Source: Siphonodentalium dalli
Lineage: Eukaryota > Mollusca > Scaphopoda > Gadilida > Siphonodentaliidae
Assembly: GCA_032622095.1 (NCBI GenBank)
Contig: CP136066.1
Location: 93,765,319-93,829,318, forward strand
Direction: 5' to 3'
DNA: 64,000 bases
Shown here: positions 12,139 to 61,036 of the stretch, one piece after another
How positions within the stretch are numbered: position 1 is the first letter of the stretch
How the letters are laid out: every line of letters starts with the position of its first letter
Translations under genes and position numbers: made by a program
The notes under the pieces: model-generated
Database searches by the model: none
Seen by the model: the letters and a program-made list of their open reading frames with translations, nothing else
What the model was told of the DNA's origin: nothing

Positions 12139-12243
12139 GAAGCCTATTGATGCAGAAATGCTTGTATTCCAATTTCCAAATGGAATCAACATTATCTCAA
12201 ATTATGATTTAGGAATACAAGCATTTCTGCGTGAATAGGCTTC
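12139..12243. repeat. Inverted duplication of the transposase 3' coding end
   Basis: 12139-12170 is an inverted copy (two mismatches over 32 bp) of 12212-12243, which encodes the last helix of the transposase (KPIHAEMLVF). The arms flank the stop codon with a loop of about 41 bases, so the mRNA 3' end can fold into a strong hairpin. Confidence 0.85.
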
Positions 12244-14153: not shown

Positions 14154-14935
14154 TATGAGAATTATGACATCGTTGTCGAGACGAGTTGATTTTTTTGAGT
14201 CACCTATCTCGCTTGGAAACGGAAGTCGATTAATAACTTCCGGCGAGTATAATTTCCGACCGTCCCGCTGACCGGTGAAATACGGTCAGTAGTCAACCAA
14301 GAAAGATCGCCGATGACGGTTTTCTTCTAAATGTTCGGTTCGGTTTTTAGTGGTGGAGGAAACACCGAACTTACGGTAAAAACCGCAAAACCGCCCAGCT
14401 CTAGCATCTAGAAGTTTGAACCTTTATATTGGCCAAAAAGTTTGGGCAAATTTGATTTTCTTTGGCCATCTCTGAAATAATCTGATCATTGGCCAATATG
14501 CCACCGACATCACGAACCCTGAGGAGTGTACTCATGAATATTGAGCACAGGGTCCTCCATGTGAACGATTGAGGATCTAGAACTCGCCATACAAAAGCAG
14601 TTAGCTGAAGAAACTTTGCACATCTAATATTGTATTTGAAATATGTTTGAAATATCCATGGTACTTTTTGTACAATCTAATTTTGCATAAGATTTGGAAA
14701 TGATGAATTAAAACCTGGTAAATATCTACCTTTTCTTATTAATCAAAAGAGGCTATATTTAGACTAGTACTGTGATTTTTACACTGGGTACCTTGGATCT
14801 AGGAAGGATAGCAGTTTCTATCTTGCAGCAATTCTCACTGTACCTAGTTAACTCTGGTAGGCCATTTGTTTAACTTAATTTCAGAACATTTCCTTGAGGG
14901 AACTACTCGTCGGTGAGTATCTTGTAAAGATAGTG

Positions 14936-15399: not shown

Positions 15400-15654
15400 G
15401 TTTGTATAGATTTTTTATCTGTGACCCAACAGCCTCTCTTTTTATAGGCCAAGGAAATAAATATATTATTGGTTGGCATTCTGCTACTGACCCTATTTTA
15501 TACCTCCTACCCTAGTTTTTGTCCCCAGTAAAAATATTTGGGATTTTTACTGGAGTTATGACCTTTGTTGACTTAGAATTTGCTGATTATTTTGGTTTCC
15601 GGATGATATGTTTAGATTTTGTTACAAGATTGTTTTCAAAATTGGTATAATTTT

Positions 15655-16430
15655 AGCTCAACTTTACTTTGTAAAGTTTGAGTTACTGCGGTGCTCATCA
15701 GATCATCACCAAACTTCATATGGATCTTCGGGTGACCTCCAGATGGGAGCCATAAATTTTTTCCAGCCATTTTGAATTTCAGATTTGAATCCATCTGCGC
15801 AGCCCGCAATTATCAGAGAAATGTTTTGAAAATTTACATGCATGTTTAGGATCACCTAGGCAACCATCTTGGATTTTACTCATGGCATGACTAAATCCTT
15901 TGGCTCACCCTACAGACCACATCCCTCATCCGATCATCACCAAAATGGTTCTTCATGGTGACTTATAAATTGGAGCTATAAATTTTTGTTTTTCAAAATT
16001 TGTTGAAAAACATGGTTGCTAGCGGCCATTTTTTATTTTACTCTTTGCATGACTAAATCTTTCGGCACACCCTACAGGCTACATCCCTCATCCGATCGTT
16101 ACCAATCTTCATCTGGATCTTCGGGTTGACCTCTAGATTGGAGCCATCGATTATTCCCATAATTTGTTAAAAAACATGGCTGCCAGCTGCCATCTTTAAT
16201 TTTACTCTTTGCCTGATTAAATCCTTTGGCACACCCTACCGGGCCACATCCCGCATCCAATCATCACCAAACTTCATATGGATCGTCGGGGTGTCCTCTA
16301 GATTGGAGCCATCGATTATTTCCGAAATTCCTTATAAAACATGGCTGCCAGCAGCCATCATGGATTTCAAATTTGAATCCATCTGCATACCTGCAGCCCA
16401 CATTTATTGGTGAAATGTTTCAGAATAATA
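15655..16430 (+). repeat. Pearl-like element with a degenerate tandem core
   Basis: It starts TTTTAGCTCAACTTTACTTT followed by an inverted match, the same head as the large copy at 40699. Four to five diverged units follow, each with TCATCACCAAACTTCATATGG and CATGGCTGCCAGCAGCCAT. The 3' hairpin seen in the other copies is missing. It lies in intron 4. Confidence 0.75.
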
Positions 16431-18110
16431 TTTTTCATTTCTAAAAATGCCACCGTCAAATAAAGCCACCTTATGTTCATGGTTTTCAAGAGAATCTCTT
16501 AACATTTTTGAATAATTTTATGTGAAAAAGAACAAATAACACTTTCACCTACTCAGAATATCCTGTTTTCTCAGTCTTTTCTCTTTTTTTTTTAAAACCT
16601 GCAATCCCTTTCAAATGACTTGTAACCCCAAACAAGATATATTATTTTCTTTGATCTCAGCTCAAGCCAATAGTCAGAATGAGCTATGATCATCGTTCAC
16701 CATTCATTGTCTGTAGGTTTATCTGCAAATATCAATTTGTTTGTTAGGGTGGCAGATATCTAGGCCATAAGATACCAGATGATACAGATCTCATGTAAAT
16801 TTGGTATGTGTGTGTGTGGCACCATGAGGGCTTTGGAAATCTGGGGCTTTGTGGTTTCAAAATAAGACGTAGGCAAATCAGTGATCATTTATGTTACAGA
16901 CCAGACCTATTTCAGTCTTTGCAGTTCCAATCCCTGCACATCTACATTGTCACTTTTGTCCAACTCAAAATTTATCATATATGGCAGGTATACTGGATTG
17001 ACTGCTCTTCTGTCTGTGTGTCCGTCAGATCATCAGTCTGTCCAGCCATATATCTCAGCTGTGGGTTATCATTTCTGAATGAAATTTGTTTGGTATGAAT
17101 GTTTGCTATATTGACTGTTTTCAAAAGAGGGGCAAATGACTTAAAAAAGTCTTTTTTCACAATTTTCCGTTATAGAGTTATCCTTCTTTCATCTGGAAAT
17201 CTGGGGTTTTTGTCCTGGGGAGAAGTCACTTCTTCATTTCCCAGCATGTATATCACCAAACCTGATACAAAACAGTACCGGTCCCGGAACTGACAGTACT
17301 TAGGCAATTTTCAGGGTGCCGCTACTGAGTGTTGAGTACAGCCATACTCATTTCTAGGCGGTACTCAAATTAATATATATCTGCAACGAGCACATTTTTA
17401 TGTCCCGAAGTTGGTTAATTTAAATCATGCACATTATCTGCATATCCATAAAGTGTCACTGTCAGTGTCAACACAAAGTGGTCAGTTGGCGACGCTTCTT
17501 TGAAGACTGAGCAACACATCATTAATGTGGCACTGACTGATGTCTAGTTCAATTGAAGGCTTGTTTCCTTTCTTCAAAGGAATTAAACGATCAATTGCCG
17601 ACTGACATTAGTGTTGAAACGATTAATCGATTAGTCGAAATCGACGCGATTATTAAATTAGTCGATCCCGAAATATGCTAGTCGACTAGTCGAGAAAAAG
17701 CACTACCTAAGTGCTATCATGACCGCAGTGCCATTGCATGGTAATATTATCACGTAATCTGTAACAGTTATACATATTAACTTCTTAGAGCTTATTGCAT
17801 TGTTCCTTTAACGATGCCACTGCCAGTCATGCACGAGCGGTGAACTCCATGACTTGAACTGAACCCAATGTATGCACATGTACCGGTATGCACGGTTTCT
17901 TTTATGTTGATCATCAAAGACACGAAGTGTCGCTGCCGACCGAACACTGTCTAGTTCAATGGGACGCAATTGATCAGTGATAACTTCTAGAGTAATGATG
18001 CAACAAAATGGCTTCAATGATATACAAAACATAATTCGCGACATGTCAAGCTGGTAAAGTCAACAAAGTAACTGAATAGATCCTAGATCATTCTAATACC
18101 CATACCATTC
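16431..18110. other. Intron 4 sequence with scattered repeat fragments
   Basis: There is no gene. 16985-17070 repeats the fragment seen at 5144-5260. 17613-17700 (TGTTGAAACGATTAATCGAT, CTAGTCGACTAGTCG) looks like one end of a hAT-type element whose partner end I cannot find. The rest shows nothing I can name. Confidence 0.5.
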
Positions 18111-18144
18111 TTTGTTAGAAATGATTGTTTTGTGGGTTTTTGTG

Positions 18145-19340
18145 TTTACCCATACCATAGTATGGTAAACATAATGTCGTTGTCCGGATTGACCACTCGT
18201 CGTTCATCCGTCTGTCTGTCCATCCGTCCGTCTGTCTGTCCGTAGACACTTTACGAGTAATGCGATAACTCAAACATTTTCTATCCAATTTTGTATATGG
18301 GTTTCTCAGCCCAAAATACAAATCGAGTTCGAATATGGGTTTGATCTGATTTATTTTAAAGGAGTTATGACCCTTTTTCGAGAAAAAAATTTGATTTTTT
18401 TTTTTAGATTTATTTTTTAACTTTTATAATAATAATAAAACAAATTGTCATTGACTCTTTCATTTAGATATTGATGATTATGATACAATTTGATAAAAAG
18501 GTTCCCAATGTGTCCCTTTAAATATTTAGTAATGAACCCATAAATTAATAGTGTTAAGGTGCCATTACACAACCCAGCCATTTTTGCATACAGCACGGAT
18601 CCCCCATTAATGTCAAGTAGTAGTTAAATAACAGAATTCCTTCTGATATCTGATAAAAAACACATGTGTAGATCACAATATTGGAGTGTACTATATAGAC
18701 TGCCACTGGTTAATAGAATGTTATTTATTTGGTGATAGACTGTATCCCACAGACCAGTTAATTATGATGTACAGTCTGTGAAAGATTTCCTGATAAAACC
18801 GTGCTTTTAAAATTTGCTGGATGCTGCATTGCACAGCTGAATATATAACTCTACAGATGGTCTGAGGTCATTATAAATGTTATTGTATTAATAGAGATGC
18901 CAGTATCAATATAAACAATGTCTGTGATTTGTTGACAGCTCTGCTATATAATTGATATTAATGGATCAGCAGTGAGGTGTCATTATATTGATGGGTGACT
19001 TTTGGGTGATGTTGGTAGAATTTGAGATATTATCATTGTAAACTTAAATTGGAATCTCTTAACCCAAGTATTCCATATCCAGGTCACCTTTTTCACATTT
19101 AACCCAAGGATGTGGTGGTGCAGCATTACAGATCCTGTACCAGTGCATTCTCTTATATAAATGCGAGTGACCCATCAATTCCAATAATTTGTTGTATGTA
19201 CATTTGTCTATAATAGTACATAACAGTATACTCTATAATTCAACATCAAAACTCTCATTTATGATTCTGAATATTTACTATCGCCAAGGGATGGGTTAAC
19301 ATCTGCCTATCGTGATCGGCCTCTCGTTTTCTTTTATTTT
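18145..19340 (+). repeat. Dispersed repeat with TCTG/TCCG head, full-length copy
   Basis: It opens with the palindrome GTTTACCCATACCATAGTAT with GGTAAAC, then TTGACCACTCGTCGTTC and a short TCTG/TCCG array (about 18207-18241). AT-rich sequence follows, and it closes with CTATCGCCAAGGGATGGGTT and GATCGGCCTCTCGTT. Related copies are at 21920, 32455/43642 and 35925. At 19020-19050 it preserves the uninterrupted site (TTATCATTGTAAAC) at which a 10.9-kb element is inserted in the 32455/43642 copy. Confidence 0.8.
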
Positions 19341-21876: not shown

Positions 21877-21919
21877 GTTAGTATGCTTGCACATTTACCG
21901 ACATATTTTTGTTTTATGT

Positions 21920-23210
21920 TTACCCATAGTATGGTAAACACAGTGTCGTTGTCTGGATTGACCACTCGTCGTTAGTCCGTCCGTCCGTCCGTCTGTCTGT
22001 CTGTCTGTAGACACTTTAGATAACTCAAATATTTTCTATCTGATTGGAACCAAATTTTGTATATGAATTTCTCAGCACAAAAGACAGATCGAGTTCGAAT
22101 ATGGGTTTGATCAGACTATTTTTAACTGAGTTATGGCCAGTGTTCGCGCTGTCGGTAGCCAAATTAGCCAATGGCTAATCTTTTTCGAATTTGGCTAATG
22201 AAAATTTCATTTGGCTAAACTTTTGGCTAAACTTTTTTTTACCCCAAATAGAGACTAAAAGCATGAATTTTTGGCAAGTGGGTTTTTAATTCTGTGATGT
22301 GAACGATCTAGTCCGAAAACATCGTATACGTAAGTGGGAATATATCGCCGACTGTACAAAGGGAAACCCGATCGCGGACAGTACAAAGGGAAACCCGTCA
22401 CTCTGCACGAAACAGCAAAAAGTCATATCATTATTTTACATTTAATCCGCTAATCCCCCATTGTCTGTCTGGTCACTCACGGAGCTCCTGCACAATGCAT
22501 GTTTATGATGACATTGTATTTATGACGGCCAAGGTTAATGAGCACCAAGTGTAAGACAATAGCTTAATCAGCCAAATGTGAATCACGACAGATATTTTGT
22601 GGCTATTTTTCGTCAATACCGATACATTCAAAATAATATGCATGCGTTTATGACAGATTGTAATTTGATAATGGCGTGCGTAACAATATTAAGTTATTAG
22701 TTTCCAGATGTCAATTAGATATTTTCGCAAGGATAATTAATATTTAATGATTTAAAAGAAGAAAGTGGGGAAATGTCCGGTGGGGAAATGTCCGTATACC
22801 CAATCCCGGGTTACCCACCCCCCCCCCCCCCCCCCCCCCCCACCCCTCCAAATCACTCTTTCACATAAAGATTACTAAATTTTTAATAAATGACATACAT
22901 AAAAATATTTCTAGTTCATCAAAATTAGTTAAATTATTGTGTATTTTACCTGTGCCTGTTAGATTTGACGTTTTAGTCATTAATTATGAACCGACCATAA
23001 AACGATGATTTAATTTGGCCATAGTTTTTTTTAATTTGGCCAAAAAATATTTGGCTAAAGTTTTTTTCATTTGGCTAATGAAATTTTCATTTGGCTAAAC
23101 TTTTGGCTAAACTTTTTTTCGGTCCAGCGCGAACACTGGTTATGGCCCTTTTTCGAAAAAATATTCACTCTTAAAAAAAAAAAAAATTTAGATTGAATTC
23201 CTTGCTCAAT
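21920..23210 (+). repeat. Partial dispersed repeat, split by a hAT-like insertion
   Basis: The same head as at 18145: TTTACCCATAGTATGGTAAAC, CTCGTCGTTAGTCCG and a short TCCG/TCTG array (about 21973-22009). The copy is interrupted at 22137 by a 1-kb element and resumes at 23139 with GTTATGGCCCTTTTTCG, fading into A-rich sequence. Confidence 0.8.
22130..23146. mobile_element. hAT-like non-autonomous element with 8-bp target duplication
   Basis: The element is 22138-23138 (1001 bp). Its inverted ends are CAGTGTTCGCGCTG, with one mismatch, and it is flanked by GTTATGGC at 22130-22137 and 23139-23146. Both subterminal regions carry TTTGGCTAAACTTTTGGCTA blocks. A pure C run of about 24 bases lies at 22818-22841. 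There is no transposase ORF. Confidence 0.88.
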
Positions 23211-24218: not shown

Positions 24219-27200
24219 ATTGGCAACGGGAATAAAGAACACGTGCGGGTTCTTTATACACGCATGTGTTTCTATCTTGTACCTATATTTCAAATAAAAG
24301 ACATGAGATGTTAAAAATTACATCTGCAATTGGATGGTATTTTCTCGTGAAAGATACAGAGAGTTATAGTCTGTCCAACACTGAAGTGCGAAATTTTAAA
24401 TCAATGCCGATCTGTAAATTGCCCGTGTCGGTTTATCAATTTGTCGGGTCAGTTATTTCAACGGCCAGTGGAAACACACCTGCTGGTGACAAATCATTAT
24501 TTAAAGCTAAGTGAGTAAAGGCCGATCCACACCTGGCGCGAGCGCGCGATTATAACGGCCGTGACTGACATCATGTATGCACTTTGTGTATGTATACACC
24601 TAGTTTATGAACTGAAGCGATCACAAACATGCCTGATATATAAAACCTGATGCACGATATAGTTCTCTACTTATAATGTTAATAGTTTTACTCGATCATG
24701 ATGGAGACAGAGTATAATAAAAGCCAAGCACCCTTCTGGTGGTAATATTATTACTTGATTATGACGGTGATAGTATATATAATAAACGTCCGTGTAACAT
24801 TCTATACTCGTTCGCTAAAAAAAACTTAGAATACTACCCTGCACATCCTCTCTTCGGTTTAGTTTTATCTGGATTGGCGAATTTGACCCCCCCCTCTCTA
24901 AGTCTCTGCGGAATTTGCATAAAGTCTGAACCCTCCCGAAGCGAGCTCTTCGTTGGGCAGGTTGCTTTGTGGTCAATCTTGGTGGGCAATCCGACAGTAT
25001 ACCGACGTACATGTCCCTGCATTAAAGATGGATTATCTCTTTAAATAACAAATTTGAAATAGTTGCATGGGTCTAAAATAATAACTATGAATTGAATAAC
25101 CCTGCCCGGAAAGGCTTCTATCAATTACTATCTATTTTATTTCGAATATTTTATTATGAAATGAGATGATTAATTGGGACACTTTATTTGTCTATTTTTA
25201 GAACAGACAATTCAAGCGATATTATATAAAGATAGGTAGCATTAGGTTGTTTTTATAGCTACGTACCGAACATCAAATATCCCAGATTGATTGATTGTAT
25301 TGTTTTGTTCCATAGTTATAAGCGATAAAGAGTATAATTAACGTGTATTTGTGATAAAATTACACAATAACATTTCTGATATATGTTAACAGTAACCACT
25401 ATTGTTCATTAACTAAACAACCACACCTTTTTTTAGCAGAAAATATTCGCAATCAAATCAATATTAATCGAAAGAAGCATTTCTGGACAGGAGTCTTCGA
25501 TTCATTTCTAATATTTTATACCCCGGTAACTATATAATACATGTTTACAAAGAGATAATCCACCTATAACATCCGTCCTTCATTCGCCCATTTTGATTTG
25601 GCAGGAAAAATATCGGATTGTTTTGTCCCAGCCATACATTGGTAATAGCTGGGACAAAACACTTTCAAGTGGAACATTTTCGGTCCGAATCACTCTTCTC
25701 ATCTGGAAAATGCAATAAATATTTGGCTCCTCTATTCGCCATGTTCCTCAATTAGAGAGAGAGAGAGGGGGGTGATTAATTTGTTCAATATTTTTCAACT
25801 GTAACTCAGTCAATTTAAAACCAATTACAAAATGTTCACGGCATCGATATCGGGGTGTCAGGTAGAACATGCATTCCATTAAAGTTTGGTCGCGATTGGA
25901 GAGAATTTGAACATTGAACACCCCTCCCCGTCAATATTATGATAACAGCCACTTTTTTATAAATGAAGATAATTTGTCCCGTTCCGCTACCTCAAAGCAT
26001 TCCGGTGATACTCTACAATAAATTGTCGACACATGTGAGAGGTCGGTTTAAGGGCCATAACTACATAAAGCAAGCAATGACAAATTCACGATGGCTTAAC
26101 ATAATGAATCTGTAACGCGCTCAATTGCCCATCCCCCCTTTGCGCTGCCCATATACACCGCTTCTGTATACGCGCCTGCTTCACGTTAATGGTAGTATAA
26201 TACTGTCCTTATTATACTACCATTAACGCGTAGGCGAGTATATAGAAGCGGCGTATATGGGCAGAGCAAAGGGGTGGGAACGAAGCTGAGCGCGTTACAG
26301 GCCCCTGTGCAATAGATATATACAAAATACTACATATATTCCTTACATCGCAACATGGCGACCACGTTGCTCAGCTTGTTAATGTTATGGCGAACTGGGT
26401 CACATATGTCGTCCAACAAATTACGCGTCTTGTTCTGACTGTAGTTTAGAGAGCGTCCTGCTTTATCCTTCTGCATAACGGGACAGTCCAATAATTCCTC
26501 ACATCTCTATGAAATCATTACATTCACCAGAATGTGATAAAAGCGAATATTTGGATAAATGGAGTTCTACTATACCCAAACTCTCGCATTGTAGAAATAT
26601 CACGGACATGTCACTTACGAATCAGTTAACTAATACTAAAGTTATCAATCAGAAACCATCTCAGACGGACGCACAGACAGACATGTTGATTACTATATTC
26701 CTCCTCCATCTATCGGGGACAATTAGATATATATATTGATGAACGGACGAACAAGCTGATTCATGTAGGCATATACAATTCCCACCCCACCCACAACTGA
26801 TTGCAGGGGTATAATAAGGTAAGAATTATAATATAAATGGTACCTGAACACTCCACATTAATGCACGTATAATCGGAAGATTAATGAGAATGCTTTAATG
26901 TCGTTCTCTTTAGCACTGCACATTTGCAGAATTCCAACATGGAAACACGACTCCAATTTGACGATTTCCCTATGTTGGATGTTACTAACTCCGAAAATAT
27001 CCGTCCCATTCTCACAAGACTTGTCCCACATGGGCAGATAAGTGGTTCAAACAAGCACATAACATGTACCGCGATCAATGAACGTTGAATCCGAAGAATA
27101 AAATGAATTTCACTGTATATTCAACAGTCACGATAAACAACAACACACAAAGCAATCCACATGGGGTATGAACGTAATCGAAAAGAAAAGAGCGTTCTCT

Positions 27201-28404: not shown

Positions 28405-31400
28405 TTTCGAATATCTCTGGCCTCCATCGTCATAATACCGCAAGTACGTAATTGTTTTGAAGTACTAGAAATTCCCCATCGAATGACACCAAACACGTGA
28501 CGATCGGTTGAAGGAATTTAAATTCATAGTGCATTTTCTGTAAACTTGAACAAAAGGAAGGGGCCACAATTTCTACATTTGTCAACTGATTCATAAAATT
28601 CACTCACAATGACACTCAGTACATCATATAGATTCTTCACAACCATTTTGGTTCAAATCGGCGACAAAAAAAAAAAAGACCAATTTTGCCCCTCCCCTAG
28701 CCCAGAAAAATTTGAGCGGACCTTTGTCAAAATTTCCTGGTTTGGTCTTCTGTCTATGTTTAAGCACTTTCTACACATGGACTTTATTAGTACATTTTTC
28801 GATGTGTTATAACTTGGTCATTTCTCACCCGATTTACAAAATTTTGGCTGGGATCAGTGACAAGAAAAAAATTGACAAATTTTGCACCCCTCCCCAGGTC
28901 AACAAATTGTTTTCGGACCTTGGTGAAAATTTCCCCGATTCGGATTCGTACCCTTTCGTTAGTTAACACGATTACGAGTACCAAATTCAGCTGCTTGACT
29001 TCTTATAGGAGAAGATCTGGGCACAAACTTTTTCCAAAATTTTGGTTTAAGGGCCATAACTCTGGTAAGCAAGCTGGGACATAAACCTAAATGTCTCGAG
29101 TCGCTGTAGGTTGGCAAGGTGCATATATCTACCAAATTTCAATATTCTATCTTTTAAACTTTCAGAGATATAAGGGTTACAAAATATATTAAGAAGAAGA
29201 ATAAATAATAGTGAAAAATAAAAAATTGAATAACAATATACTTCCATATTAAAATATGGAAGTATAATAAGGGAATCGCGCGGAATTGATTGGAATGTTG
29301 ATAGTATGGTTTATTGACATTTCTGTGTTCAGTTGGAACGCTCTGGTGTGACCCCCACCCATGCCTCGAAATATGGTGACGCGGGTAGAATAGTCGTCAT
29401 ATATCGGCCAATTTTGTAGATATTGAGCTAATTTTTGCGTCATTGTGTTCGTATTTGTTGCCCCTTTAATATTTACCAGGGTTCTGGTGAGGTATTGTGG
29501 TGATATTTTACTATGTAGGCCAATATGTATGTTGTTCAGTTCATACTTTTCGAATATCTCTGGCCTCTATCGACATAATACGGCAAGTCGGTAATCTTTA
29601 GAAGTACTAGAAATTCCCCATCGAATGACACCAAGCACATGACGATTTATTGAAGGAATTTAAATTCATAGTGCATTTTCTGTAAACTTGGAAAAAGGAA
29701 GGGGCCACAATTTCGACATTTGTCAACCGATTCATAAAATTCACTCACGATGACACTCAGTGCATTTTATAGATACTTCACAACAATTTTGGTTCAAATC
29801 GGCGACAAAAAAAAATTGACAAATTTTGCCCCTCCCCTAGCCCAGAAAAAAATTGAGCAGACCTTTGTCAAAATGTCGTGGTTTGGTCTTCTGTCTATGT
29901 TTAAGACGCTCACATAGAGCAAATCCAGCTGTTGCGCTTCGTCTAAGAGAAGATCTGCGAACAAGCACTTTCTACACATGGACTTTATTAGTACATTTTT
30001 CGATGTGTTATAACTTGTCATTTCTCACCCGATTTACAAAATTCTTTCACGAGTAGCATCAGTACGTCGTATAGATACCCGACAGTAAAAATGGCTGGGA
30101 TCAGTGACAAGAAAAAAATTGACAAATTTTGCACCCCTCCCCAGGTCAACAAATTGTTTTCGGACCTTGGTGAAAATTTCCCCGATTCGTACCCTTTCGT
30201 TAGTTAACACGATTACGAGAACCAAATTCAGCTGCTTGACTCCTTATAGGAGAAGATCTGGGCACAAACTTTTTCCAAAATTTTGGTTTAAGGGCCATAA
30301 CCAGGGCTGGCGATCTAGAAAATCCAGGAGGGCTATTAATAGCCCTCCTAGATATGCCTAGGAGGGCTATAGCCCTCCTCAACTTTTAAAGTTATGATTT
30401 ATTTTATCTGAGTTACTACTGCCGTTAGTTTGTCTATTTTTGATGTTGTATAACTCCATTTAAATTAATTTTCTTCATGTGGAAACAAAGTGTCCACAGA
30501 GTTGTGAATGTCAAAATCCCCCACAGTAATTATGGTATGGTGAATATTTAACTATGTTTTATATGTTGTGATAATCTATATGTACAAGAAACAAAATGTA
30601 AGAGTATTTGTACTCAACAATTTGTCAGTCGGTGTCCAACCCATGCAACGGAATTGGGTGAGTTTGTTCACATTAAAAGCATTCTCCATGAAAGTGTAAT
30701 TTTACGTAAAATACACAATCAAGAACAATATTAAATCCAGTATATTTGCACTTGAATATTGACTGTTTTTTCTCTCAAAGTAATCCATATTCCATTGTCG
30801 ATCGCAGACTGCTGCTTGCAGCGGTCAAGTCGCTATCTATAGATTTACTGGGTGTTTGCAATTGGGGACATAGAAAATAGTTTCTGAACTTTAATAATTG
30901 AATAACAGTGTAAACTAGAATACGTGGATACATTTAGCTAATTATATTAAAATATTGTCAATCGAAGCGATAAAAGACGGCTGCAAGCTAAATACAATTT
31001 TCACTGATAGGAACCGGAAACGGAACGAAAGGTTGAACTTAATTGGGACAGTGACATTTGGTTCTCACTATCCACAAACATGTGCCATTTTATCCAGTGA
31101 AATATATTGTAAGCTCAATCTTATGAAGAGAAATTATTTATTTTGGTCATAAAATGTGTGAGAATCGATCAAAAGATCAGATTTACGAAACAGTTCGTTC
31201 CGGAATTTACTGATTCCGCTATAATTCCCATTTGACATTACCGTCAAGTCACGCATGCGCACAGTCCCCACACTGTACAATATAATTACGATTTCGATGC
31301 AGTATTTTACTCATTAAACACAATAAAATAACTAAATAATAAATGTCCTATCGTAGACGAGGCGGGCTATAAAAAGCCCGCCTTGGAAAATTCTAGGCGG

Positions 31401-32130
31401 GCTGTAGGCGGGCAGCCCGCCAGCCCGCCTTGAGATTTCCAGGCCTGCATAACTCTGGTAAGCAAGCTGGGACATAAACCTAAATTTCCCCGATTCGTAC
31501 CCTTTCGTTAGTTAACACGATTACGAGTACCAAATTCAGTTGCTTGACTTCTTATAGGAGAAGATCTGGGCACAAACTTTTTCCAAAATTTTGGTTTAAG
31601 GGCCATAACTCTGGTAAGCAAGCTGGGACATAAACCTAAATGTCTCGAGTCGCTGTAGGTTGGCAAGGTGCATATATCTACCAAATTTCAATATTCTATC
31701 TTTTAAACTTTCAGAGATATAAGGGTTACAAAATATATTAAGAAGAAGAATAAATAATAGTGAAAAATAAAAAATTGAATAACAATATACTTCCATATTA
31801 AAATATTGAAGTATAATAAGGGAATCGCGCGGAATTTATTGGAATGTCGATAGTATGGTTTATTGACATTTCTGTGTTCAGTTGGAACGCTCTGGTGTGA
31901 CCCCCACCCATGCCTCGAAATATGGTGACGCGGGTAGAATAGTCGTCATATATCGGCCAATTTTGTAGATATTGAGCAAGGTGCATATATCTACCAAATT
32001 TCAATATTCTATCTTTTAAACTTTCAGAGATATAAGGGTTACAAAATATATTAAGAAGAAGAATAAATAATAGTGAAAAATAAAAAATTGGATAACAATA
32101 TACTTCCATATTAAAATATGGAAGTATACT
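28405..32130. repeat. Segmental tandem duplication, about 1.2-kb unit
   Basis: Unit 1 runs from about 28405 (TTCGAATATCTCTGGCCTCC) to 29553, and unit 2 from about 29554 to 31975 including a 1146-bp insertion. A third partial unit runs to 32130. Shared landmarks include GGAAGGGGCCACAATTTC, TCACCCGATTTACAAAATT, AGAAGATCTGGGCACAAAC and CTTCCATATTAAAATAT at unit ends. Unit 2 also repeats about 190 bp around 31450-31640. Short ORFs recur identically because the sequence is duplicated; none looks coding. Confidence 0.85.
30296..31453. mobile_element. Inserted element with CAGGSCTGG ends and 6-bp target duplication
   Basis: The element is 30302-31447 (1146 bp). The left end is CAGGGCTGGCGATCT and the right end (complement) CAGGCCTGGAAATCT. 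CATAAC flanks both sides (30296-30301, 31448-31453), and the uninterrupted site is visible in unit 1 at about 29050 (GGGCCATAACTCTGG). It contains GGAGGGCTATTAATAGCCCTCC-type palindromes at the left and GGCGGGCTG repeats at the right. There is no transposase. Confidence 0.83.
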
Positions 32131-32454
32131 AAAAAAAATTTTTTTTTTAAATAATTAAACAAAAATGTTTGTTAAAGATTACAAATTTTTAAAAACTGAC
32201 ACCATTATAACTCTGCCAAGGGTACCCCAAGTCACCACACCAAATTTGTTTAAATCAGTCCAAAATCTTGTGTTATGTACTGGTAAATTTGTTTGGAGCG
32301 ACATTAAATCCAATTCACCAATTTCATCCCATGCCTTTGGACTACTTAGCTATTAATAAGGCTATATTATTTTCTGATGTCTCTTATGCCAATGTGCAGA
32401 TAATCTGATAAAGAAAGCTATGGTATCTAATTTAAAATAAAGATTCAACAATAC

Positions 32455-32693
32455 ACATCACATGATATTAACAGTAGACTTGAACATCTGCTGCCTTGCA
32501 CAGCTCAAGATATCACTCTACAGATGGTCTGAGGTCATTATAAATGTTATTGGTTTAATAGAGATGCCAGCTTTCAACATAAACAATTCCTGTGATTTGT
32601 TGACAGCTCTGCTATATAATTTATATTAATGGGTCAGCAGTGAGGTGGCTTATCTTGATCTATATTGTTGGTAGAATTTGATACATTATCATT
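32455..32693 (+). repeat. Left half of a dispersed-repeat copy split by the 10.9-kb element
   Basis: This matches about 18810-19036 (CTCTACAGATGGTCTGAGGT, GATTTGTTGACAGCTCTGC) and stops at TTATCATT. The copy resumes at 43642 with GTAAACTTAAATTGG. The stretch before it (32131-32454) shows no structure. Confidence 0.85.
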
Positions 32694-33719
32694 TAGACCG
32701 GCCCCCATATGAGGGTAGTGTCACACGAAAGGGTAGAAATTTTTACGCCAACTCCAATTATCCTTGCCCCATGGGGGTTCCAAAACACTGAGGTATCCAG
32801 GGCGGAGCAGGTGGAAAATATATTTTTTTGACCTTTTTGTTGTTTTTGACCTGCAAATTTCAGTATAATCAGGAAGACCAATAAAATAAGACAAATGTTA
32901 AACAAAATATACTTGGATATCATATACTTATTCCATCTGGGTTGCTTAACATTTATGATGTGCAAAAAGTTATATTATCCAACAATTTTTGTGAAAAATT
33001 CACAAAAATGCCAAAAAAATGCATAAATTGCAGTGCTTTTTCCAAAAAAAAATTCCAGAAGATTTTCTATAAAATTTTCATTTTTGGTATAAAGCTCTCA
33101 GTGGTGCATCACAATTTTCAGCATTATATACCTGATTTATTAATATCAACTTCACCAGCAATGATATCCAACAAGCCGAGATATTTCCAAAAACTGAACC
33201 CACCCCCCTAAAACTGATTTTCTGTCTGAAAATACCTGTCAAGTCAGAATAGCCCGTTTTCGTTCCATTTTGTTAACCAATTCAGAGTCTTATCATATAT
33301 CATGGAATTAAAATGTATCTGAGGAGGTTTATGTTATGTTAGAGTCTATTTTTTGTTTTTGGATTTTTTGTTTTTTGGGGTAAATTAACTAAAATTTTGA
33401 TTATTTTTAAGTGAAATTTTTTGGAAAATTTCCCATGACTTTATCAGTTTTACGGATACAGCCGCACAACATGCAACAAAATGAGCATAAATTGTTTCCC
33501 AATATCAGACATGAAATGCTATAATCATGTACCAGACCAGAATTAAGAAATAAAGTAAAACTTAACCCTACCCCAAAATAGTGTTCTCAATGCTTTCAAT
33601 TTTATGCTATTCTAAACTCGAAAGGTCGTTCATACTAGCTGATATAATTCATATCATAAATTGCAATAGTTCTGTCCACGGATTATGCAATCTCATCTTC
33701 ACTGTCAATTTCATCAAAT

Positions 33720-33965
33720 GTGATGGTAACAGTCAATAGAATTTCTGTGCAACATCTTACAACTCAGGCTGCCTATCAGCCGTCCATCCATGAAGTGCTA
33801 CACCGGGAGTGCTTGATTTGGCAATGGTTGCAAATCTCCACTGTTTTTCTATCATGTTGGCTTGTTTTGATTGTAGAATTAAAGATTCCTCACATGGTGG
33901 AAGTACAGAAAGATCAAGTACCTTCTACTGATTCTCGAACTTCTGCTGGAACATTATCCGCCTAG
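33720..33965 (-). pseudogene. Decayed element-encoded protein, left-arm copy
   Basis: The minus strand here matches the plus strand of about 39720-40020. It encodes traces of a segment around LPPC and HSKRANIIAKQW. The frame is broken and a deletion of about 65 bp relative to the right arm lies at about 34105. It is a relic of the element's own gene. Confidence 0.5.
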
Positions 33966-34299
33966 CTTGATTCACTTTTCTCGAATGTTGAACATAAGGC
34001 ACATGCTAACTCCTCGAGTGTAGTAAGCGTGTCACTGTCCAAAACCCAATTCGTTCCTAAATAAGCCATGACTTCCATATATTTTGATTGTCTTTTCAGC
34101 GAAGGAATGTGAAGGAATGGAACCCAATAAGTACATTCTTCTGTATATTTGAAATCTCGATATCACTGACTTGAATCACCTGCCCATTAGCATCAAAATT
34201 GATGAACTATTATCAGGGGGAAATCATTTAACGTTTCCTCCATTGTGCATAAACGCCATCAAGATAGAGAACTCTCTGACATGACCTCTCTATCGATTA

Positions 34300-35890
34300 A
34301 TATATTGTTGAGTTATTGTGGAAAGCAATAGCAACCCAAGGTACACATGTACAAGCAACCCAGTAACATACAGTCACTCCATATATACACATAAACACCA
34401 TACAAATGTCAAGATAGTCACTCACTCTATACACATCATACATCTGACCCATGACCATATAGTCACTCCCTGTATACCTATTTACCACTTTCCTGATCAT
34501 AAGTCAATCCTTGTATACCAATTCATCTCACCATTGGCAATACGGTCACTCCCCGTATACCTATTCGCCATGGACAAAATAGCCATTCAAGATAAACATA
34601 TACACCCCATCTGTGACCATAGAGTCACTCCATGTATACATATGCATCTCACCATTGGCCATATAGCCACTTGCTTTATATACGTATCCCTCACCCATGA
34701 CCATATATATCCACACTCGTGTATACCTGTACACTCCACACATGCCCATGCAGGCACACTAGGTATACTCATACAACTGACCCATGACCAAATAGCCACC
34801 CCCTGTGTACCTATCCAACACATTCATGATCATACAGTCAATCATTGTATACCTATTCACCTCACCATTGGTCATACATCACTCGTTGTATACATGTTCA
34901 CCAAACCCATGGCAAGATAGCCATGCAAGATATACATATATCCCCCAACCATGACCATAGAATCACTCCAGGTAAACATATGCACCTCACTAATGTTGAT
35001 ATAGCCACTCACTTTATACACATACCTCTCCATAACCATACAGCCACTCTTGTGTATACCTGTATACCCTACACATGACCATACAGCCACACCAGGTATA
35101 CTCCTACACCTGACCCATGACCATATAGTCACTCCCTGTATACCTATTCATCACATTCATGATCATACAGTCACTCCTTGTATACCTGTTCACATCACCA
35201 TTGGCCATACAGTCACTCCCTGAAAACATATTCACCTCACTATTGGCCATAGAGTCACTCACTATACATATTTGCCATGTCAATAGCCATATAGCCACTC
35301 GATATATACATATACACCCACACATGACCATCCACACGCTCGTCAATGACCATTCAGCATATATCAGGTACACATATACACATTATGACTACTGCCATTC
35401 CATGTACACTTATACGCATTACACATAGCTGCACATATATTTATCCATTCACCCCACCGTGATCATACAAACAACACATGTATACATATACACCTACCAG
35501 TGACAACACAGCCACACAAGGTACACCTGTACATCCCACCCATGACCATACAGTCACTCCATATATACATAAAAACACATATGACCATGTAGGTACATGT
35601 ACTCTCGTTATTTACATAAACCACAACAATGTCCATTGAGCCACATCGTGTACACCTGTACTGGGTAGTCATAACCATACAACCATACAGTCACTCCATG
35701 TATACCTATTCACCTCACACATGACCATACACTCACTCCTTGCATACATATACATCTCACCATGGCCACCCCATTCATGACCATATAGCTAACCATGTAC
35801 AGCTATTCGCATCATTCATGACCATACAATAACTCCCATTATACATATTCACCTCACCTATGACCACACGGTAACTTCCTGGTTGCCATG
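34300..35890. repeat. Degenerate minisatellite, about 60-65-bp unit
   Basis: Units carry CCATGACCATATAGTCACTC followed by C-rich TGTATACCTATTCACCTCACC variants, about 25 times. Open reading frames on both strands here are repeat artefacts. It sits between the arms of the foldback element. Confidence 0.85.
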
Positions 35891-35924
35891 TTGACCTCCA
35901 CCCTGTATCATGTTGATCAATTTT

Positions 35925-38895
<2,971 letters not shown>

Positions 38896-39374
38896 ATCCT
38901 AATAGGCCAAAATAGCCACAGATTATGATTCATTTCAGTTCCATTTCCAAGTTCTGCCTATTTATTTAAAAAAATATAGCCAGTATCCAAAAAGAGGTTC
39001 CCAGGGGTGGGGGGATAAGGGAACTTTAAAATTAATTTGTTATGCCCCATAAGGAAATGGGACAACCAGAATAGAACATTTAGTTGTCAGTTGATTAGCT
39101 AACATGTAAAATAACCAAGTGAGTCACAATTTGCTACATTTTCGGTAACGCAGAGAATATTTGTAAAAAATGGTTTATAAACACATTAGTGTGACACATT
39201 TAAGGTAGATCAAAACAATAAACACCTTTCATACCAAACATAGTTACATTTTACTTGAAAATGTTTTGCCATTATTTATATCAAGTTTGTGAGAGAAAAA
39301 TCCGATATTTCTGGTAATGTCAGTGGTGACAATAGTAAAAATTAACTAAGGTGCATCAGACATGTTAGTGTTCA

Positions 39375-39960
39375 ATGTATAGAAGGCATATTAGCCAATT
39401 TTATACATCAACCACAACTTCTAAGCGATTGCGGGACACGCTGGGTCAATATCTACCATTTCCACATTTTGGCAGCCAAATATACAGAAGAATGCAGTTG
39501 TTGGGTTCCATTCCTTCACAGACAATAATTACCTTTCATCGTTGTTCCGAAAAGGAAAAAAAAACACTTCTGGAAGTTGCTGGAAAGACCATCAAGATAT
39601 ATGGAAGTCATGGCTTATTTAGGAACGAATTGGGATTTGGACAGTGACACGCTTAATACAATCAAGGAGTTAACATGTGCCTTATACATGTATGGTCCAA
39701 ATTCGAGAAAAGTGAATTAAGCTAGGTGGGTAAAGTTCCAGTAGAAGTTCGAGAATCAGTAAAAGGTAGTTGATCTTTCTGCACTTCCACCATGTGAGGA
39801 ATCTTTAATTCTACACTCAAAACGTGCCAACATAATAGCAAAACAGTGGAGACTTGCAACCATTGCCAAATCAATCACTCCCGGTGTAGCACTTCATAGA
39901 TGGACGGCCGATAGGCAGCCTGAGTTAAATTGTTTGAACCATTCTTTCCCGTAAGATGTT
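39375..39960 (+). pseudogene. Decayed element-encoded protein, right-arm copy
   Basis: An open part (39375-39647) contains TFHRCSEKEKKTLLEVAGKT and IKIYGSHGLFRNELGF. Other frames continue with TIKELTCALYMYGPNSRKVN, then SALPPCEESLILHSKRANII and AKQWRLATIAKSITPGVALH. Widespread uncharacterised ORFs of invertebrate transposons contain a similar order (TCxxY, then LPPC...H..RANY...W). This comparison is from memory, so the family is a suggestion. Stops and frame changes break it. Confidence 0.5.
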
Positions 39961-40698
39961 GCACAGAAATTCTATTGACTGATACCATCACATTTGATGA
40001 AATTGACAGTGACAGTGAAGACCAGATTACATAATCCGTGGGCAGAACTATTGCAATTTATGATATGAATTCTATCAACTAGTATGAACGACCTTTCGAG
40101 TTTATTATAGCATAAAATTGAAAGCATTGAGAACACTATCTTGGGGTAGGGATAAGTTTTACTTTATTTAATAATTCTGGTCTGGTACATGATTATAGCA
40201 TTTCATGTCTGATATTGGGGAAGAATTTATGCTTATTGTGTTGTATGTTGTGCAGCTGTCTCCATAAAGCTAACAAAGTCATGGGAATTTTTCAAACATT
40301 TTTCACTTAAAAATAATCAAAATTTTAGCCAATTTACCCCCAAAAAATCAAATATTTAAACAAAATAGACTCTACCATAGCATAAACCTCCTCATATACA
40401 TACTAATCCCATGATATATGATAAGACTCTGAATTGGTTAAAAAAAAGTAATGAAAACAGGCTATTCTGACTTAATAGGTATTTTCAGATAGAAAATCAG
40501 TTTTAGGGGGGGTGGGTTAAGTTTTTGGAAATATCTCGGCTTGTTGGATATCATTGCTTGTGTTGTTGATATTAATAAATCAGGTATATAATGCTGAAAA
40601 TTTTGATGCACCAATGAGAGCTTTATACCAAAAAATGAAAATTTTATAGAAAATCTTCTGGAAATATTTTTTGAAAAAGCACTGCAATTTATGCATTT

Positions 40699-43320
40699 TT
40701 AGCTCAACTTTACTTTGTAAAGTTTGAGCTATTGCCATGGCTTTGTCGTCCGTCGCCCGTGTGTGCGTGTGTACGGGCGGCGTCAACAATAGAGGCTACA
40801 GGTCGTACCTTTGATCGGATCATTATGAAATTTGTCATAGCTGTTGACATCAACATTTGTACCGGAATGATTCATTTTGGGGTCATACGGAAAAAAAACA
40901 TGGCCGCCAGTGGCCATCTTAGATTTCAAAATTCAATCCATTAGCACGGGCTACAGGTCGTACTGTTCATCTGATCGTCATGAAATTTGTCATGGATGTT
41001 AATATTGACATGTAGATGGGAACGAGTAATTTTGAGGTCATTCGGCCAAAAAACATGGCCGCCAGCAGCCATCTTCGATTTTACTCTTTGCATGACTAAA
41101 TCCTTTAGCACGGGCTACAGGTCGTACCTTTAGTCAGATCGTCATAAAATTTGTCATGGATGTTAACAATGACATGTAGATGGGAACGAGTCATTTTTGG
41201 CTTATTCGGGCAAAAAACATGGCCGCCAGCAGCCATCTTGGATTTTACTCTTTGTATGACTAAATCCTTTAGCACGGGCTACAGGTCATACCTTTAGTCT
41301 GATAATCATGAAATTTATCATGGCTGTTGAAATTGGAATGTAGATGGGAACGAGTCATTTTGGGGTCATTCGGACAAAAAACATGGCCGTCAGTGGCCAT
41401 CTTTGTTTTCAAAATTCAATCCATTAGCACGGGCCACAGGTCGCACTGTTCGTCTGATCATCATGAAATTTGTCATGGATGTTAATATTGACATGTAGAT
41501 GGGAACGAGTAATTTTGGGGTCATTCGGCCCAAAAACATGGCCGCCAGCAGCCATCTTGGATTTTACTCTTTGTATGACTAAATTCTTTAGCACGGGCTA
41601 CAGGTCGTACCTTTAGTCTGATCATCATAAAATTTGTCATGGATGTTAACAATGACATGTAGATTGGAACGAGTCATTTTGGGGTCAATCGGCCAAAAAA
41701 CATGGCCGCCAGCAGCCGTCTTGGATTTTACTCTTTGCATGACTAAATCCTTTAGCACGGGCTACAGGTCCTACTTTTAGTCTGATCATCATAAAATTTG
41801 TCAAGAATGTTAATAATCACATGTAGATGGGAACGAGTCATTTTGGGGTCATTCGGCCAAAAAACATGGCCGTCAGCAGCCATCTTGGATTTTACTCTTT
41901 GTATGACTAAATCCTTTAGCACGGGCTACAGGTCGTACCTTTAGTCTGATCATTATAAAATTTGTCATGGCTGTTGATATTGGAATGTAGATGAGAACGA
42001 GTCATTTTGGGGTCATTCGGACAAAAAACATGGCCGCCAGCGGCCATCTTGGATTTCAAAATTTAATCCATTAGCACAGGCCACAGGTCGTACTGATTGT
42101 CTGATCATCATGAAATTTGTCATGGATGATAATATTTACATGTAGATGGGAACGAGTAATTTTGGGGTCATTCGGCCAAAAAACATGGCCACCAGCAGCC
42201 ATCTTAGATTTTACTCTTTGTATGACTAAATTCTTTATCACGGGCTGCAGGTCGTACCTTTAGTCTGATCATCATAAAATTTTTCATGAATGTTAATAAT
42301 GACATGTAGATGGGAACGAGTCATTTTGGGGTCATTCGGCCAAAAAAGATGGCCGCCAGCAGCCATCTTGGATTTTACTCTTTGTATGACTAAATCCTTT
42401 AGCACGGGCTACAGGTTGTATCTTTAGTCTGATCATCATAAAATTTTTCATAAATGTTAATAATGACATGTAGATGGGAACGAGTCATTTTGGGGTCATT
42501 CGGCCAAAAAAGATGGCCGCCAGCAGCCATCTTGGATTTTACTCTTTGTATGACTAAATCCTTTAGCACGGGCTACAGGTCGTACCTTTAGTCTGATCAT
42601 CATAAAAATTTTCATGGCTGTTGAAATTGGAATGTAAATGGGAACGAGTCATTTTGGGGTCATTCGGCCAAAAAACATGGCCGCCAGCGGCCATCTTGGA
42701 TTTCAAAATTTAATCCATTAGCACGGGCCACAGGTCGTACTATTCGTCTGATCATCATGAAATTTGTCCTGGATGTTAATGTTGATATGTAGATGGGAAA
42801 CGAGTAATTTTGGGGTCATTTGGCGAAAAAACGTGGCCGCCAGCAGCCATCTTGGATTTTACTCTTTGTATGACTAAATTCTTTAGCACGGGCTACAGGT
42901 CGTACCTTTAGTCTGATCATCATAAAATTTGTCATGGATGTTAACAATGACATGTAGATTGGAACGAGTCATTTTGGGGTCAATCGGCCAAAAAACATGG
43001 CCGCCAGCAGCCATCTTGGATTTTACTCTTTGTATGACTAAATTCTTTAGCATGGGCTACAGGTCGTACCTTTAGTCTGATCGTCATAAAATTTGTCATT
43101 GATGTTAACGATGACATGTAGATGGGAACGACTCATTTTGGGGTCATTCGACCGAAAACATGGCCGCCAGCAGCCATCTTGGATTTTACTTTCCTCTTCA
43201 TGTCTATAAACTAGTATTAGACATTCAACTTTCCACATTCCTAATCGCTCCATTGACTGTAATATATTAAATTATTCCCTTTCCAAGTTGAGCTACAGTG
43301 TCATTGACACTTTCATTTAG
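40699..43320 (+). repeat. Pearl-like element with about 15 units of ~164 bp
   Basis: The head is AGCTCAACTTTACTTTGTAA followed by the inverted match AGTTTGAGCT. The tandem core has units marked GCACGGGCTACAGGTCGTAC and CATGGCCGCCAGCAGCCATC, spaced about 153-166 bp. The tail is GTTGAGCTACAGTGTCATTG with ACACTTTCATTTAG, containing a small hairpin. Bivalve pearl elements have this plan: a ~160-bp tandem core between conserved ends, and similar elements are now linked to non-autonomous Helitrons. The insertion is defined precisely because the left arm of the surrounding element lacks it (about 33018-33024). Confidence 0.85.
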
Positions 43321-43641
43321 CATTTTCGTGAATTTTTCACAAAAATTGTTGGATAATATAACTTTTTGCACATCGTAAATGTTAATCAACCCAGATAGAA
43401 TAAGTATCTGATATTCAAGTATATTTTATTCAACATTTGTCTTATTTTATTGGTTTTCCTGATTATACTGAAATTTGCAGGTCAAAAACACCAAAAAGGT
43501 CAAAAAAATATATTTTCCACCTGCTCCGCCCTGGATACCTCAGTGTTTTTGGAACCCCCATGGGGCAATGATAATTGGAGATAGCGTCAAAATTTCTACC
43601 CTTTCATGTGACACTACCCTCATCTGGGGGCCGGTCTAATT

Positions 43642-43925
43642 GTAAACTTAAATTGGACTTTCTTAACCCAAGTATTCCATGTCCAGGTCACCTTTCACAT
43701 TTAACCCAAGGCTGTGGTGGTGCAGCATTTCAGATCCTGTACCAATGAATTCTCTTGTATAAATGCGAGTGACCCATAAATTACAATAATTTTGTCTATA
43801 ATAGTACATAACAGTATACTATAATTCAACTTCAAAACTCTCATTTATGATTCCGATCATAGTAATTTACTATCGCTAAGGGATGGATTAACATCTGCCG
43901 ATAGTGATCGGCCTCTCGTTTTTAT
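43642..43925 (+). repeat. Right half of the split dispersed-repeat copy
   Basis: Matches about 19037-19340: GTAAACTTAAATTGG, AACCCAAGTATTCCATGTCC, a remnant of the family 1 hairpin, and the end CTATCGCTAAGGGATGG with GATCGGCCTCTCGTT. Confidence 0.85.
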
Positions 43926-48348: not shown

Positions 48349-49423
48349 TTGAATACCACAGGGGCCTGTAACGCGCTCCGCTGTCCGCCCCCCTTTTGCG
48401 CTGCCCATATACGCCGCTGCTATATACGCGCCTGCTTCACGCTAATGGTATAATAATAGCACAAGGGTAACTGTAGAAATTCACCTTTTTACCATCACTC
48501 GCCGATCGATCAAATATAGCTCATTCACACCAGTAATGCCACAGATATAACCAAGGATGTATCGGCGAAGAATTCATCTTTCAATCAATACCACAAACTC
48601 CCATCAAAACCATTCATATGCATAGCATTTGATAATTTTTTAACCACCGAATATTGTCTCCGAAGACCGTAAATTTTCATTTTGATCCGGCTCAGAACAA
48701 AATGTCCGAAATCTTCCCATAACTTCACCCCCGCGCGGCTTACTATAATTAAAAATCGGCCAAACGATCAACTAAACGTTTAGCGCTCAGTGATTTCTTG
48801 TCGGCTAATAATTTATTTACTCATACAAATCAACAGATCGTCAGTAAACAATTTCTATAGAGGAGAAATCTGTCGATAATTCCAACTTTAAAAAAAAAAT
48901 TTGTCAAGTCACAAAGTTCCTAATTTTAATATTCATTGTGACCTGACCTTTCCATGACTGACATAGTAGAAACAGCCAATCACCGCTCAGTGTTAGAATC
49001 GAGGTCAGGTCATAATGAATATTAAAATGAGGACCTCGATTCTAACACTGAGCGGTGATTGGCTGTATTGGCTATAGGAACTTTGTGACTTGACAAATTT
49101 TACGGTCTTCGGAGACAATATTCGGTGGTTAAAAAATTATCAAATGCTATGCATATGAATGGTTTTGATGGGAGTTTGTGGTATTGATTGAAAGATGAAT
49201 TCTTCGCCGATACATCCTTGGTTATATCTGTGGCATTACTGGTGTGAATGAGCTATATTTGATCGATCGGCGAGTGATGGTAAAAAGGTGAATTTCTACA
49301 GTTACCCTTGTGCTATTATTATACCATTAGCGTGAAGCAGGCGCGTATATAGAAGCGGCGTATATGGGCAGCGCAAAAGGGGGACGGACAGCGGATCGCG
49401 TTACAGGCCCCTGTGTTGAATAC
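48349..49423. mobile_element. Foldback hAT-like element with 8-bp target duplication
   Basis: The element is 48357-49415 (1059 bp). The ends are CACAGGGGCCTGTAACGCG, followed by arms of about 320 bp almost fully complementary. It is flanked by TTGAATAC at 48349-48356 and 49416-49423. The centre (48900-49080) has a second inverted pair around CCAATCACCGCTCAGTGTTA. The insertion interrupts a dispersed motif CCTTGAAAACCCTTGAATAC. There is no ORF. Confidence 0.92.
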
Positions 49424-59597: not shown

Positions 59598-60462
59598 ACA
59601 ATCCCTGGTGGAGGACATATCACTGGAGACAGAAAGATGGTATATTCAAGGATGTTCAGCTCGTCAGCCAGATTCAGCTAAATAGTTGTGGGATGTGTTA
59701 TTCTAAGGATGTGTTCTTCGCAAATGGTTTCTGAAGTGTGTTTTCTCTCATATGACTACTCTCATGCCCAATCGTTCAAGGCATTTAGTTTACTTGAAGA
59801 TTGGTCCCCTTCTCATTGTGAATTCATGTTTTGGGATCTCTTGGATCATCCCAGTTAGCTGGCGTCTGAATATTTCCTTGCTTTTTAATATATCTGATAA
59901 GTGGTTGTTTATATAATTATACATTGTTACATTTTCATGCTGTCAATCCAGGGTCCCCTGACAAAATTTAATACTTGAGTCACTAAAATGTTTGCCACTA
60001 AGTTTGCATTTCTCCTAGATCACTTGTTATCTTTTGGGTGCTGTATACACATCATCATTGCAAATCAAGACACAAAACTCCCAATTCGAAATTTTTGGGC
60101 AGGTCTCGTGCTTTCATGGTATGATATTTAGGTCATATATAGAGACACACGTGTGTTGGGACAGTTTAGCAACTAAAGCTTGAGAGTGTTGTTTTGGGAT
60201 GCTTATGCCAACCACCTGAGTGTGATAAACACAAACCATCTCAGCACGAATGCAGTTCTATATTTATCATATACCCCAAAATGATACTAACCAGATTCAT
60301 TGTGGTTGTCATTGTTTTTGCAACAATTTACGAACTTCAGCAGTGCCTGTCAATTGTGTCATGTTTTTGTGAAGATCATCCTAGATCAATCCGTTGAAAG
60401 TTATCACACAGTCTGGAGTCTTGAGGTGTATAATAGAAAAGGACTTATTTCTTCGTGGTTTT

Positions 60463-61036
60463 TAGCTTAACTTTGAGATATTGCCATGGGTTGGTCGTCC
60501 ATGCGTGTGTGTGAATTCATCAACAATTTCCTTTGGCACACCCAAATAGGCCACATCCGATTGTCACCAAATTTCATATGGATCCTCGGAGAGACCTCCA
60601 GATGATAGCTTGCCATTTTTTTCTGAGTTTCGTTAAAAATCATGGCCTCCCGCAGTCATCTTGGATTTCTAGTTTGTATCCATCGGCACATCACGAAGCC
60701 CACATTTATTGGAGAAATGTTTTGAAAATTTAACGGCATGTTTAGGATCATTTCTAGATATGGGGCTATCAAATTTAAACAAATTTTTATGTTAAAAAAT
60801 GGATGCTGTCAGCCATCTTGGATTTTACTCTTTACATGACTAAATACTTAAGCACACCCTACAGCCAGCATTTTTCATACAATTGATCTCAAACTTCATA
60901 TGACTCCTCAGGTTGACCACTACTATTGCCTAAACAATTAAACTTTCCGCATTCCTTATCGCTCCATTGACTGTAATGTGTGACTTGATTCCCTCTCAAA
61001 GTTGAGCTACAGTGTCATTGACACTTTCAGTTAGAA
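60463..61036 (+). repeat. Short pearl-like element
   Basis: Head TTTTTAGCTTAACTTTGAG, three degenerate units (CACCAAATTTCATATGGATC, CATCTTGGATTTTACTC) and the tail AGTTGAGCTACAGTGTCATT with ACACTTTCAGTTAG. Same family as 40699-43320. Confidence 0.8.

Follow-up and report, generated by a model that had tools for sequence, protein, structure and literature searches.

We analysed a window of 64,000 nucleotides from the scaphopod mollusc Siphonodentalium dalli (GenBank assembly GCA_032622095.1, contig CP136066.1, positions 93,765,319 to 93,829,318 of the forward strand; all positions below are those of the window), in which an element of 10,945 bp with long inverted arms lies at 32694-43638. The element is real and largely explained. 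At somewhat better than an even chance, it is a non-autonomous fold-back element derived from a DNA transposon that encoded a transposase fused to a nuclease-like domain and a Cys-rich tail; this parent most likely belonged to the Academ lineage that bears a nuclease (AcademX). The element is old and decayed, and it seems to be a well-preserved instance of a restructuring already known for such elements. We infer the descent from the AcademX kind, and the element is not filed as a proven member.

Boundaries and empty site

Inverted tips TAGACCGGCCCCCA were found at both ends of the element, with ATT on either side. The 13-base tip TAGACCGGCCCCC has two mismatch-free occurrences in the window, at 32694-32706 on the forward strand and at 43626-43638 on the reverse strand. 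When up to three mismatches were allowed, four matches were found against 3.54 expected, and the two extra ones are therefore at chance level. A BLAST comparison of the window with itself aligned the left flank (32489-32693) with 18822-19037 (85.3% identity over 217 columns) and the right flank (43639-43922) with 19035-19330 (86.8% over 302 columns). It can be seen that both alignments overlap on exactly three bases, the ATT at 19035-19037, and that the joined flanks align straight through this empty site, which holds a single ATT. Nine boundary parses reproduce the empty site, two of which have symmetric tips: one gives TAGACC... tips with a 3-bp ATT duplication, the other TTAGACC... tips with a 1-bp T duplication. 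The 3-bp parse was preferred and is used throughout, with the 1-bp parse as the alternative. A preliminary description had proposed a terminal inverted repeat element with a short ATT duplication, and a before-and-after comparison of its flanks with an uninterrupted repeat copy near 19.03 kb; the tips, the ATT and the empty site bear this out.

Inverted arms

The two arms are about 1.46 kb long and 93.1% identical over 1446 aligned columns when the insert nested in the right arm is left out (limits 43317 and 40703 were used for this comparison). Self-alignment pairs them in two blocks, an outer one (32690-33015 with 43642-43316, 94.2% of 327) and an inner one (33015-34100 with 40700-39579, 88.3% of 1126, gaps included). 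They differ by 100 substitutions (51 transitions and 49 transversions) and by 16 insertions or deletions (indels), 12 of which shorten the left arm. The arm length of about 1.5 kb given earlier stands; what had to be corrected is that the right arm is split by an unrelated insert of 2.6 kb (about 40700-43320). The right arm appears longer only because this insert, a non-autonomous Helentron (HINE), sits inside it, and the left arm has the site uninterrupted. Long inverted arms at both ends together with a flanking duplication place the element in the fold-back structural class.

A decayed coding remnant in both arms

In each arm a broken C-terminus can be read in the direction away from the core (e.g. 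YMEVMAYLGTNW... and LPPCEESLI); it ends near DEIDSDSED. Comparison of this decayed protein with Pfam, PHROGs, NCBIfam and solved structures gave nothing credible (one PHROG of unknown function, E=0.13), and Rfam gave no match at gathering scores. Genome contigs were scanned for the pattern GCD[TSA]...F.GKGK, a choice prompted by an animal protein family with similar motifs. The scan yielded eight loci, one of which is a real relative; the other seven were rejected by eye, and an earlier motif pattern had given no match in the genome contigs. The relative, P0001, is an open reading frame (ORF) of 1466 residues with an open N-terminus, carried by JAJRVU010000273.1 (locus L016, 6512 bp), which is titled as a Planctomycetota metagenome-assembled genome. 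It is a long intact ORF of transposase-nuclease type, a type known from animals, and the contig is probably a eukaryotic contamination of that bin.

The middle of P0001 (VVLDEAIY..LRLGAFH..DMAIEQ) matches DUF6589 weakly and below the cut-off of Pfam, with E=0.003 for the whole protein and 0.0003 for this region alone; paper searches for DUF6589 returned none. Further on stand the motifs EEADTR (1182), DTDV (1208), GCDS (1264) and GKGK (1273), whose order presumably resembles that of the acidic residues and the helix-hairpin motif of FEN/XPG nucleases, and then a Cys-rich tail that resembles CXC weakly (E=1.1 for the whole protein, 0.055 for the piece). Matches of P0001 to TcA_TcB_BD, RbcX, Autophagy_act_C and preSET_CXC were sub-threshold and were taken as chance.

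When P0001 was compared with the window by tblastn, the right arm was matched at 39497-39601 and 39601-39912 (E=1.2e-6) and the left arm at 33903-33775 (E=0.005), and the next-best match had E=0.74. BLASTP of the right-arm pieces against P0001 gave 33% identity over 105 residues (E=3e-9) and 34% over 35 (E=8e-5), E-values that apply to that single comparison each. A frameshift-tolerant alignment scored 134 for the right arm, against a maximum of 52 in shuffles, and 79 for the left arm, against 55; none of the 300 dinucleotide shuffles per arm reached the score in either case. As controls, the opposite strand of the right arm gave a chance result (46 of 300), and 346 pieces lying outside the element had a top score of 53. 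Under a lenient frameshift alignment with 60 protein shuffles per stretch, 37760-40703 scored 197 (shuffles at most 134) and the left arm 117 (at most 111), and three core stretches gave chance values. These results indicate that the decayed protein previously noticed in the arms is present in both of them and matches the C-terminal part of P0001.

Each arm thus consists of the tip, about 0.95 kb of non-coding sequence and then the end of the ORF, so that the same terminal segment is present twice, inverted. A stop codon inside the ORF (TAG/TAA) is common to both arms, from which it follows that the gene was probably broken before the arms formed, or that conversion spread the stop. The right half was also tried as a native 3' end with its ORF running into the core; a lenient path at 38948-40027 looked good, but inward of the arm boundary it was no better than shuffles, and this candidate was rejected.

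No further relative was obtained from viral contigs searched by tip pattern, window protein, P0001 and four motif patterns, or from phages searched by tblastn. A longer tip pattern had no match in the viral contigs, and 13 viral loci (L001-L013), translated around the motif, were rejected by eye. The contig of P0001 shares no tip with the element (best, 4 mismatches of 13), and, simple C-rich sequence apart, its DNA matched nothing in the window at an E below 0.35.

Core and nested insertions

The core had been described as filled with repeats, and it is. Part of the repeats in the element can now be assigned to the HINE type, namely the right arm's array of 164-bp units and, in the core, the GTCT/GTCC array with the repeats of about 150 bp; the 42-bp minisatellite is not among them. 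The 5' hairpin of the HINE-like insertion in the core equals 18144-18170 over 27 identical bases and lies ahead of the GTCT/GTCC microsatellite. The 3' end of this insertion was not found, the core having no 3' palindrome with two or fewer mismatches. GTCY microsatellites are reported in the left module of several oyster HINEs (PMC7492417). The transposase part of P0001 (residues 1-1110), compared on both strands with the core at 34150-35920 and 37760-38960, found nothing, 5 to 17 of 20 shuffles reaching the score. By this proxy test, in which P0001 itself is not a proved Academ protein, no Academ DDE transposase was detected in these core stretches, nor by tblastn below E=0.74 in the window. 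Such a result is expected for a non-autonomous element, yet for this reason membership in AcademX is not claimed.

The insert in the right arm has a 5' subterminal repeat with an inverted partner, central tandem repeats and a 3' palindrome. The site that it occupies is rich in T, is unbroken in the left arm and shows no duplication. Its 5' hairpin, TAGCTCAACTTTAC..GTAAAGTTTGAGCTA, is far more stable than shuffled sequence (DNA fold z -5.8; none of 200 shuffles equally stable). At the 3' end the subterminal repeat GAGCTACAGTG is followed by the palindrome AGTGTCATTGACACT, which is no stabler than shuffles (z -1.1; 37 of 200 as good). The 3' end is found again exactly at 61004-61028, the palindrome has an exact second copy at 61013-61029 and a one-mismatch copy at 18446-18462, and the 5' end has a one-mismatch copy at 15651-15683. 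Satellite-like arrays are reported for HINEs in oyster (PMC7492417), and a preference for TT or T-rich sites in flies, mites and mosquitoes (PMC4067079). In its hairpin with subterminal repeat, tandem repeats, palindrome and site without duplication, the insert is like Cg_HINE and the HINEs of these reports, and as far as seen it is an ordinary member. More HINE-like copies or fragments lie at 15651-16440, 60460-61034, 18141-18462 and 21912-22146, with hairpins, palindromes or repeats in common with the two insertions of the element.

Table 1. Features of the element and its empty site (positions in the window).
Feature	Position	Strand	Basis or remark
Paralogous empty site, uninterrupted copy of the recipient repeat; single ATT at 19035-19037	18822-19330	+	Flank alignments
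Left target-site duplication, ATT	32691-32693	.	Tips, joined-flank alignment, boundary parses
Left inverted arm, 1456 bp; tip TAGACCGGCCCCCA at 32694	32694-34149	.	Self-alignment, arm comparison
Decayed coding remnant, left arm; matches C-terminal part of P0001	33660-34149	-	tblastn, shuffle test; limits approximate
Minisatellite, units of about 42 bp	34327-35867	.	Window self-comparison, repeat analysis
Second HINE-like insertion	35928-37770	+	Right boundary approximate
Its 5' hairpin	35928-35954
Its (GTCT/GTCC)n	35990-37056
Its repeats of about 150 bp	37081-37762
Sequence without recognised origin	37771-39464	.	No transposase similarity found
Right inverted arm, inner part	39465-40699	.	Self-alignment
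Decayed coding remnant, right arm; matches P0001 residues 1256-1386	39465-40034	+	tblastn, shuffle test; limits approximate
Nested non-autonomous Helentron (HINE)	40700-43320	+	Limits uncertain by a few T bases
HINE 5' hairpin with subterminal repeat	40700-40731	+
HINE 164-bp tandem array, 14.8 units	40794-43190	+
HINE 3' subterminal repeat and palindrome	43290-43315	+
Right inverted arm, outer part; tip at 43638	43321-43638	.	Self-alignment
Right target-site duplication, ATT	43639-43641	.	Tips, joined-flank alignment, boundary parses

Other features of the window

Near-identical direct repeats (98-99%) at 28927-29428, 31482-31977 and 31976-32132 end about 560 bases upstream of the element; their similarity suggests a recent local duplication. 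A smaller fold-back element lies at 48357-49415, with 321-bp inverted arms that are 98.75% identical and tips CACAGGGGCCTGTAACGCG. Directly on both sides stands TTGAATAC, an 8-bp duplication, the size made by hAT elements. Sequences resembling its arms are present at 26110-26309. On the reverse strand at 12195-14285 there is an uninterrupted hAT transposase frame of 697 codons (dimerisation domain, E=5e-17; DUF659 and BED finger below Pfam's cut-offs), the sole match among eight frames scanned. It is a possible source of transposase for the smaller element.

Origin of the element and alternative explanations

The 3' end of an autonomous element may have replaced its other end as an inverted duplication, for example if the template was switched while a gap left by excision was being repaired. 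A transposase from another locus, acting in trans, could then have cut and pasted the resulting element with its two equivalent ends, which would have inserted into a repeat copy with duplication of ATT. Later a HINE would have entered the right arm and probably another the core, and the element would by now have decayed. The order of these events follows from the nested HINE, which is absent from the corresponding site of the left arm.

Several points weigh against this explanation. The element is known from one copy, the 1-bp T duplication is also compatible with the empty site, and a mobiliser has to be supposed, the element having yielded no transposase. In neither arm could the Cys-rich tail of P0001 be recognised. 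Inward of the right arm (38900-39464), coding similarity was not significant, since 45, 64 and 148 of 200 shuffles reached the score at the three frameshift penalties used (left-side control, 41, 18 and 64 of 200), and neither half is therefore shown to be the original end. P0001 is not proved to be an Academ protein or to hold a FEN/XPG nuclease: no XPG model of Pfam matched it, the best Pfam match of its nuclease-like piece was the sub-threshold TcA_TcB_BD (E=0.0074; 0.079 for the whole protein), and its one match among solved structures was unrelated (E=1.6). Single-sequence fold predictions of two parts of P0001 had mean pLDDT (predicted local distance difference test) values of 33 and 39 and were not used. 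The AcademX nuclease would be of XPG type; a search for papers with both 'Academ' and 'XPG' returned none. The basis of the Academ label is a single distant relative, the resemblance of its motifs and the length of the duplication.

A composite transposon, in which the outer ends of two truncated inverted copies moved a block of ordinary genomic DNA between them, seems rather unlikely to us. A repeat-rich core where the transposase part of P0001 finds no match would agree with it, as would an empty site and ATT that bound the whole block. However, the two arms share their inner limit (about 34149 and 39465), so that two identically truncated copies would be needed, and one inverted duplication is simpler. 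The lack of a P0001 match in the core also weighs less than it might, because P0001 is a distant relative and a decayed transposase could have been missed. It is improbable that the element is a fold-back member of another superfamily with 3-bp duplications and terminal inverted repeats (PIF/Harbinger, CACTA or Zator) that captured a piece of a transposase-nuclease gene. Duplication length alone is not decisive here, as 3 bp also fits Zator (PMC10045372) and PIF/Harbinger (PMC2213677). However, the transposase-nuclease C-terminus is the only protein trace in either arm, and it is present in both. The tips, TAGACC, are also unlike those of CACTA elements, and ATT is unlike TWA, the target of Harbinger elements. 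Inverted repeats are generally known to cause assembly errors; nevertheless, an assembly artefact, or two unrelated neighbouring insertions, is very hard to credit. The arms have diverged by substitutions and private indels, which makes an assembly or library artefact unlikely; one arm alone holds a nested element; and tips, ATT and empty site are consistent to the base.

If the derivation from an AcademX-like transposon is taken a step further, there is a small chance that a whole fold-back lineage, with a copy of the ORF-bearing 3' end at either terminus, exists within the nuclease-bearing Academ elements; one type of end would then suffice for transposition, and any DNA between such ends could be mobile as a block. 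If the derivation itself is right, the restructuring known from Galileo (P superfamily, Drosophila) and other fold-back elements reaches Academ. A whole-word search for papers with both 'Academ' and 'foldback' returned none, in a scope that lacked most subscription journals and Repbase. The before-and-after site is exact, and the tip pair TAGACCGGCCCCC...GGGGGCCGGTCTA can be used for seeking an autonomous partner.

Comparison with known elements

With a duplication of 3 bp, the element comes closest to AcademX among published kinds. The likeness lies in this duplication, on the preferred ATT parse (a 1-bp parse being possible), and in the arms, which appear to carry the end of a gene of transposase-nuclease type: they match the C-terminal part of P0001, whose motifs presumably resemble those of FEN/XPG nucleases but which no Pfam XPG model matched. 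AcademX duplications are reported to be of 3 or 4 bp and are linked to the nuclease that AcademX encodes (PMC10045372). The earlier statement that no superfamily could be named was therefore only partly right, since the decayed protein is related to the transposase-nuclease type and a duplication of 3 bp is in keeping with the Academ lineage that bears a nuclease. The element differs from AcademX in its long mirror-image arms, without a Cys-rich tail in them, and in having no detected transposase. Academ is reported to have expanded in bivalves, where the curated consensus elements are autonomous and average 5565 bp (PMC10294476), unlike the element described here.

Among fold-back elements, Tetris and others of Drosophila are likewise apparently non-autonomous and have satellite-like repeats (PMC4079207); here, in contrast, the 164-bp array is part of the nested HINE and not of the arms proper. 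Galileo is the closest mechanistic precedent. It has very long inverted repeats, with tandem repeats and other transposons inside them, by which the repeats grow, and one copy carries the final 69 bp of the ORF twice, once in the 3' repeat and once, in inverted orientation, in the 5' repeat (PMC4168063). In contrast to the 3 bp (or 1 bp) found here, Galileo makes duplications of 7-8 bp in D. willistoni, and its transposase is a different one (PMC4168063).

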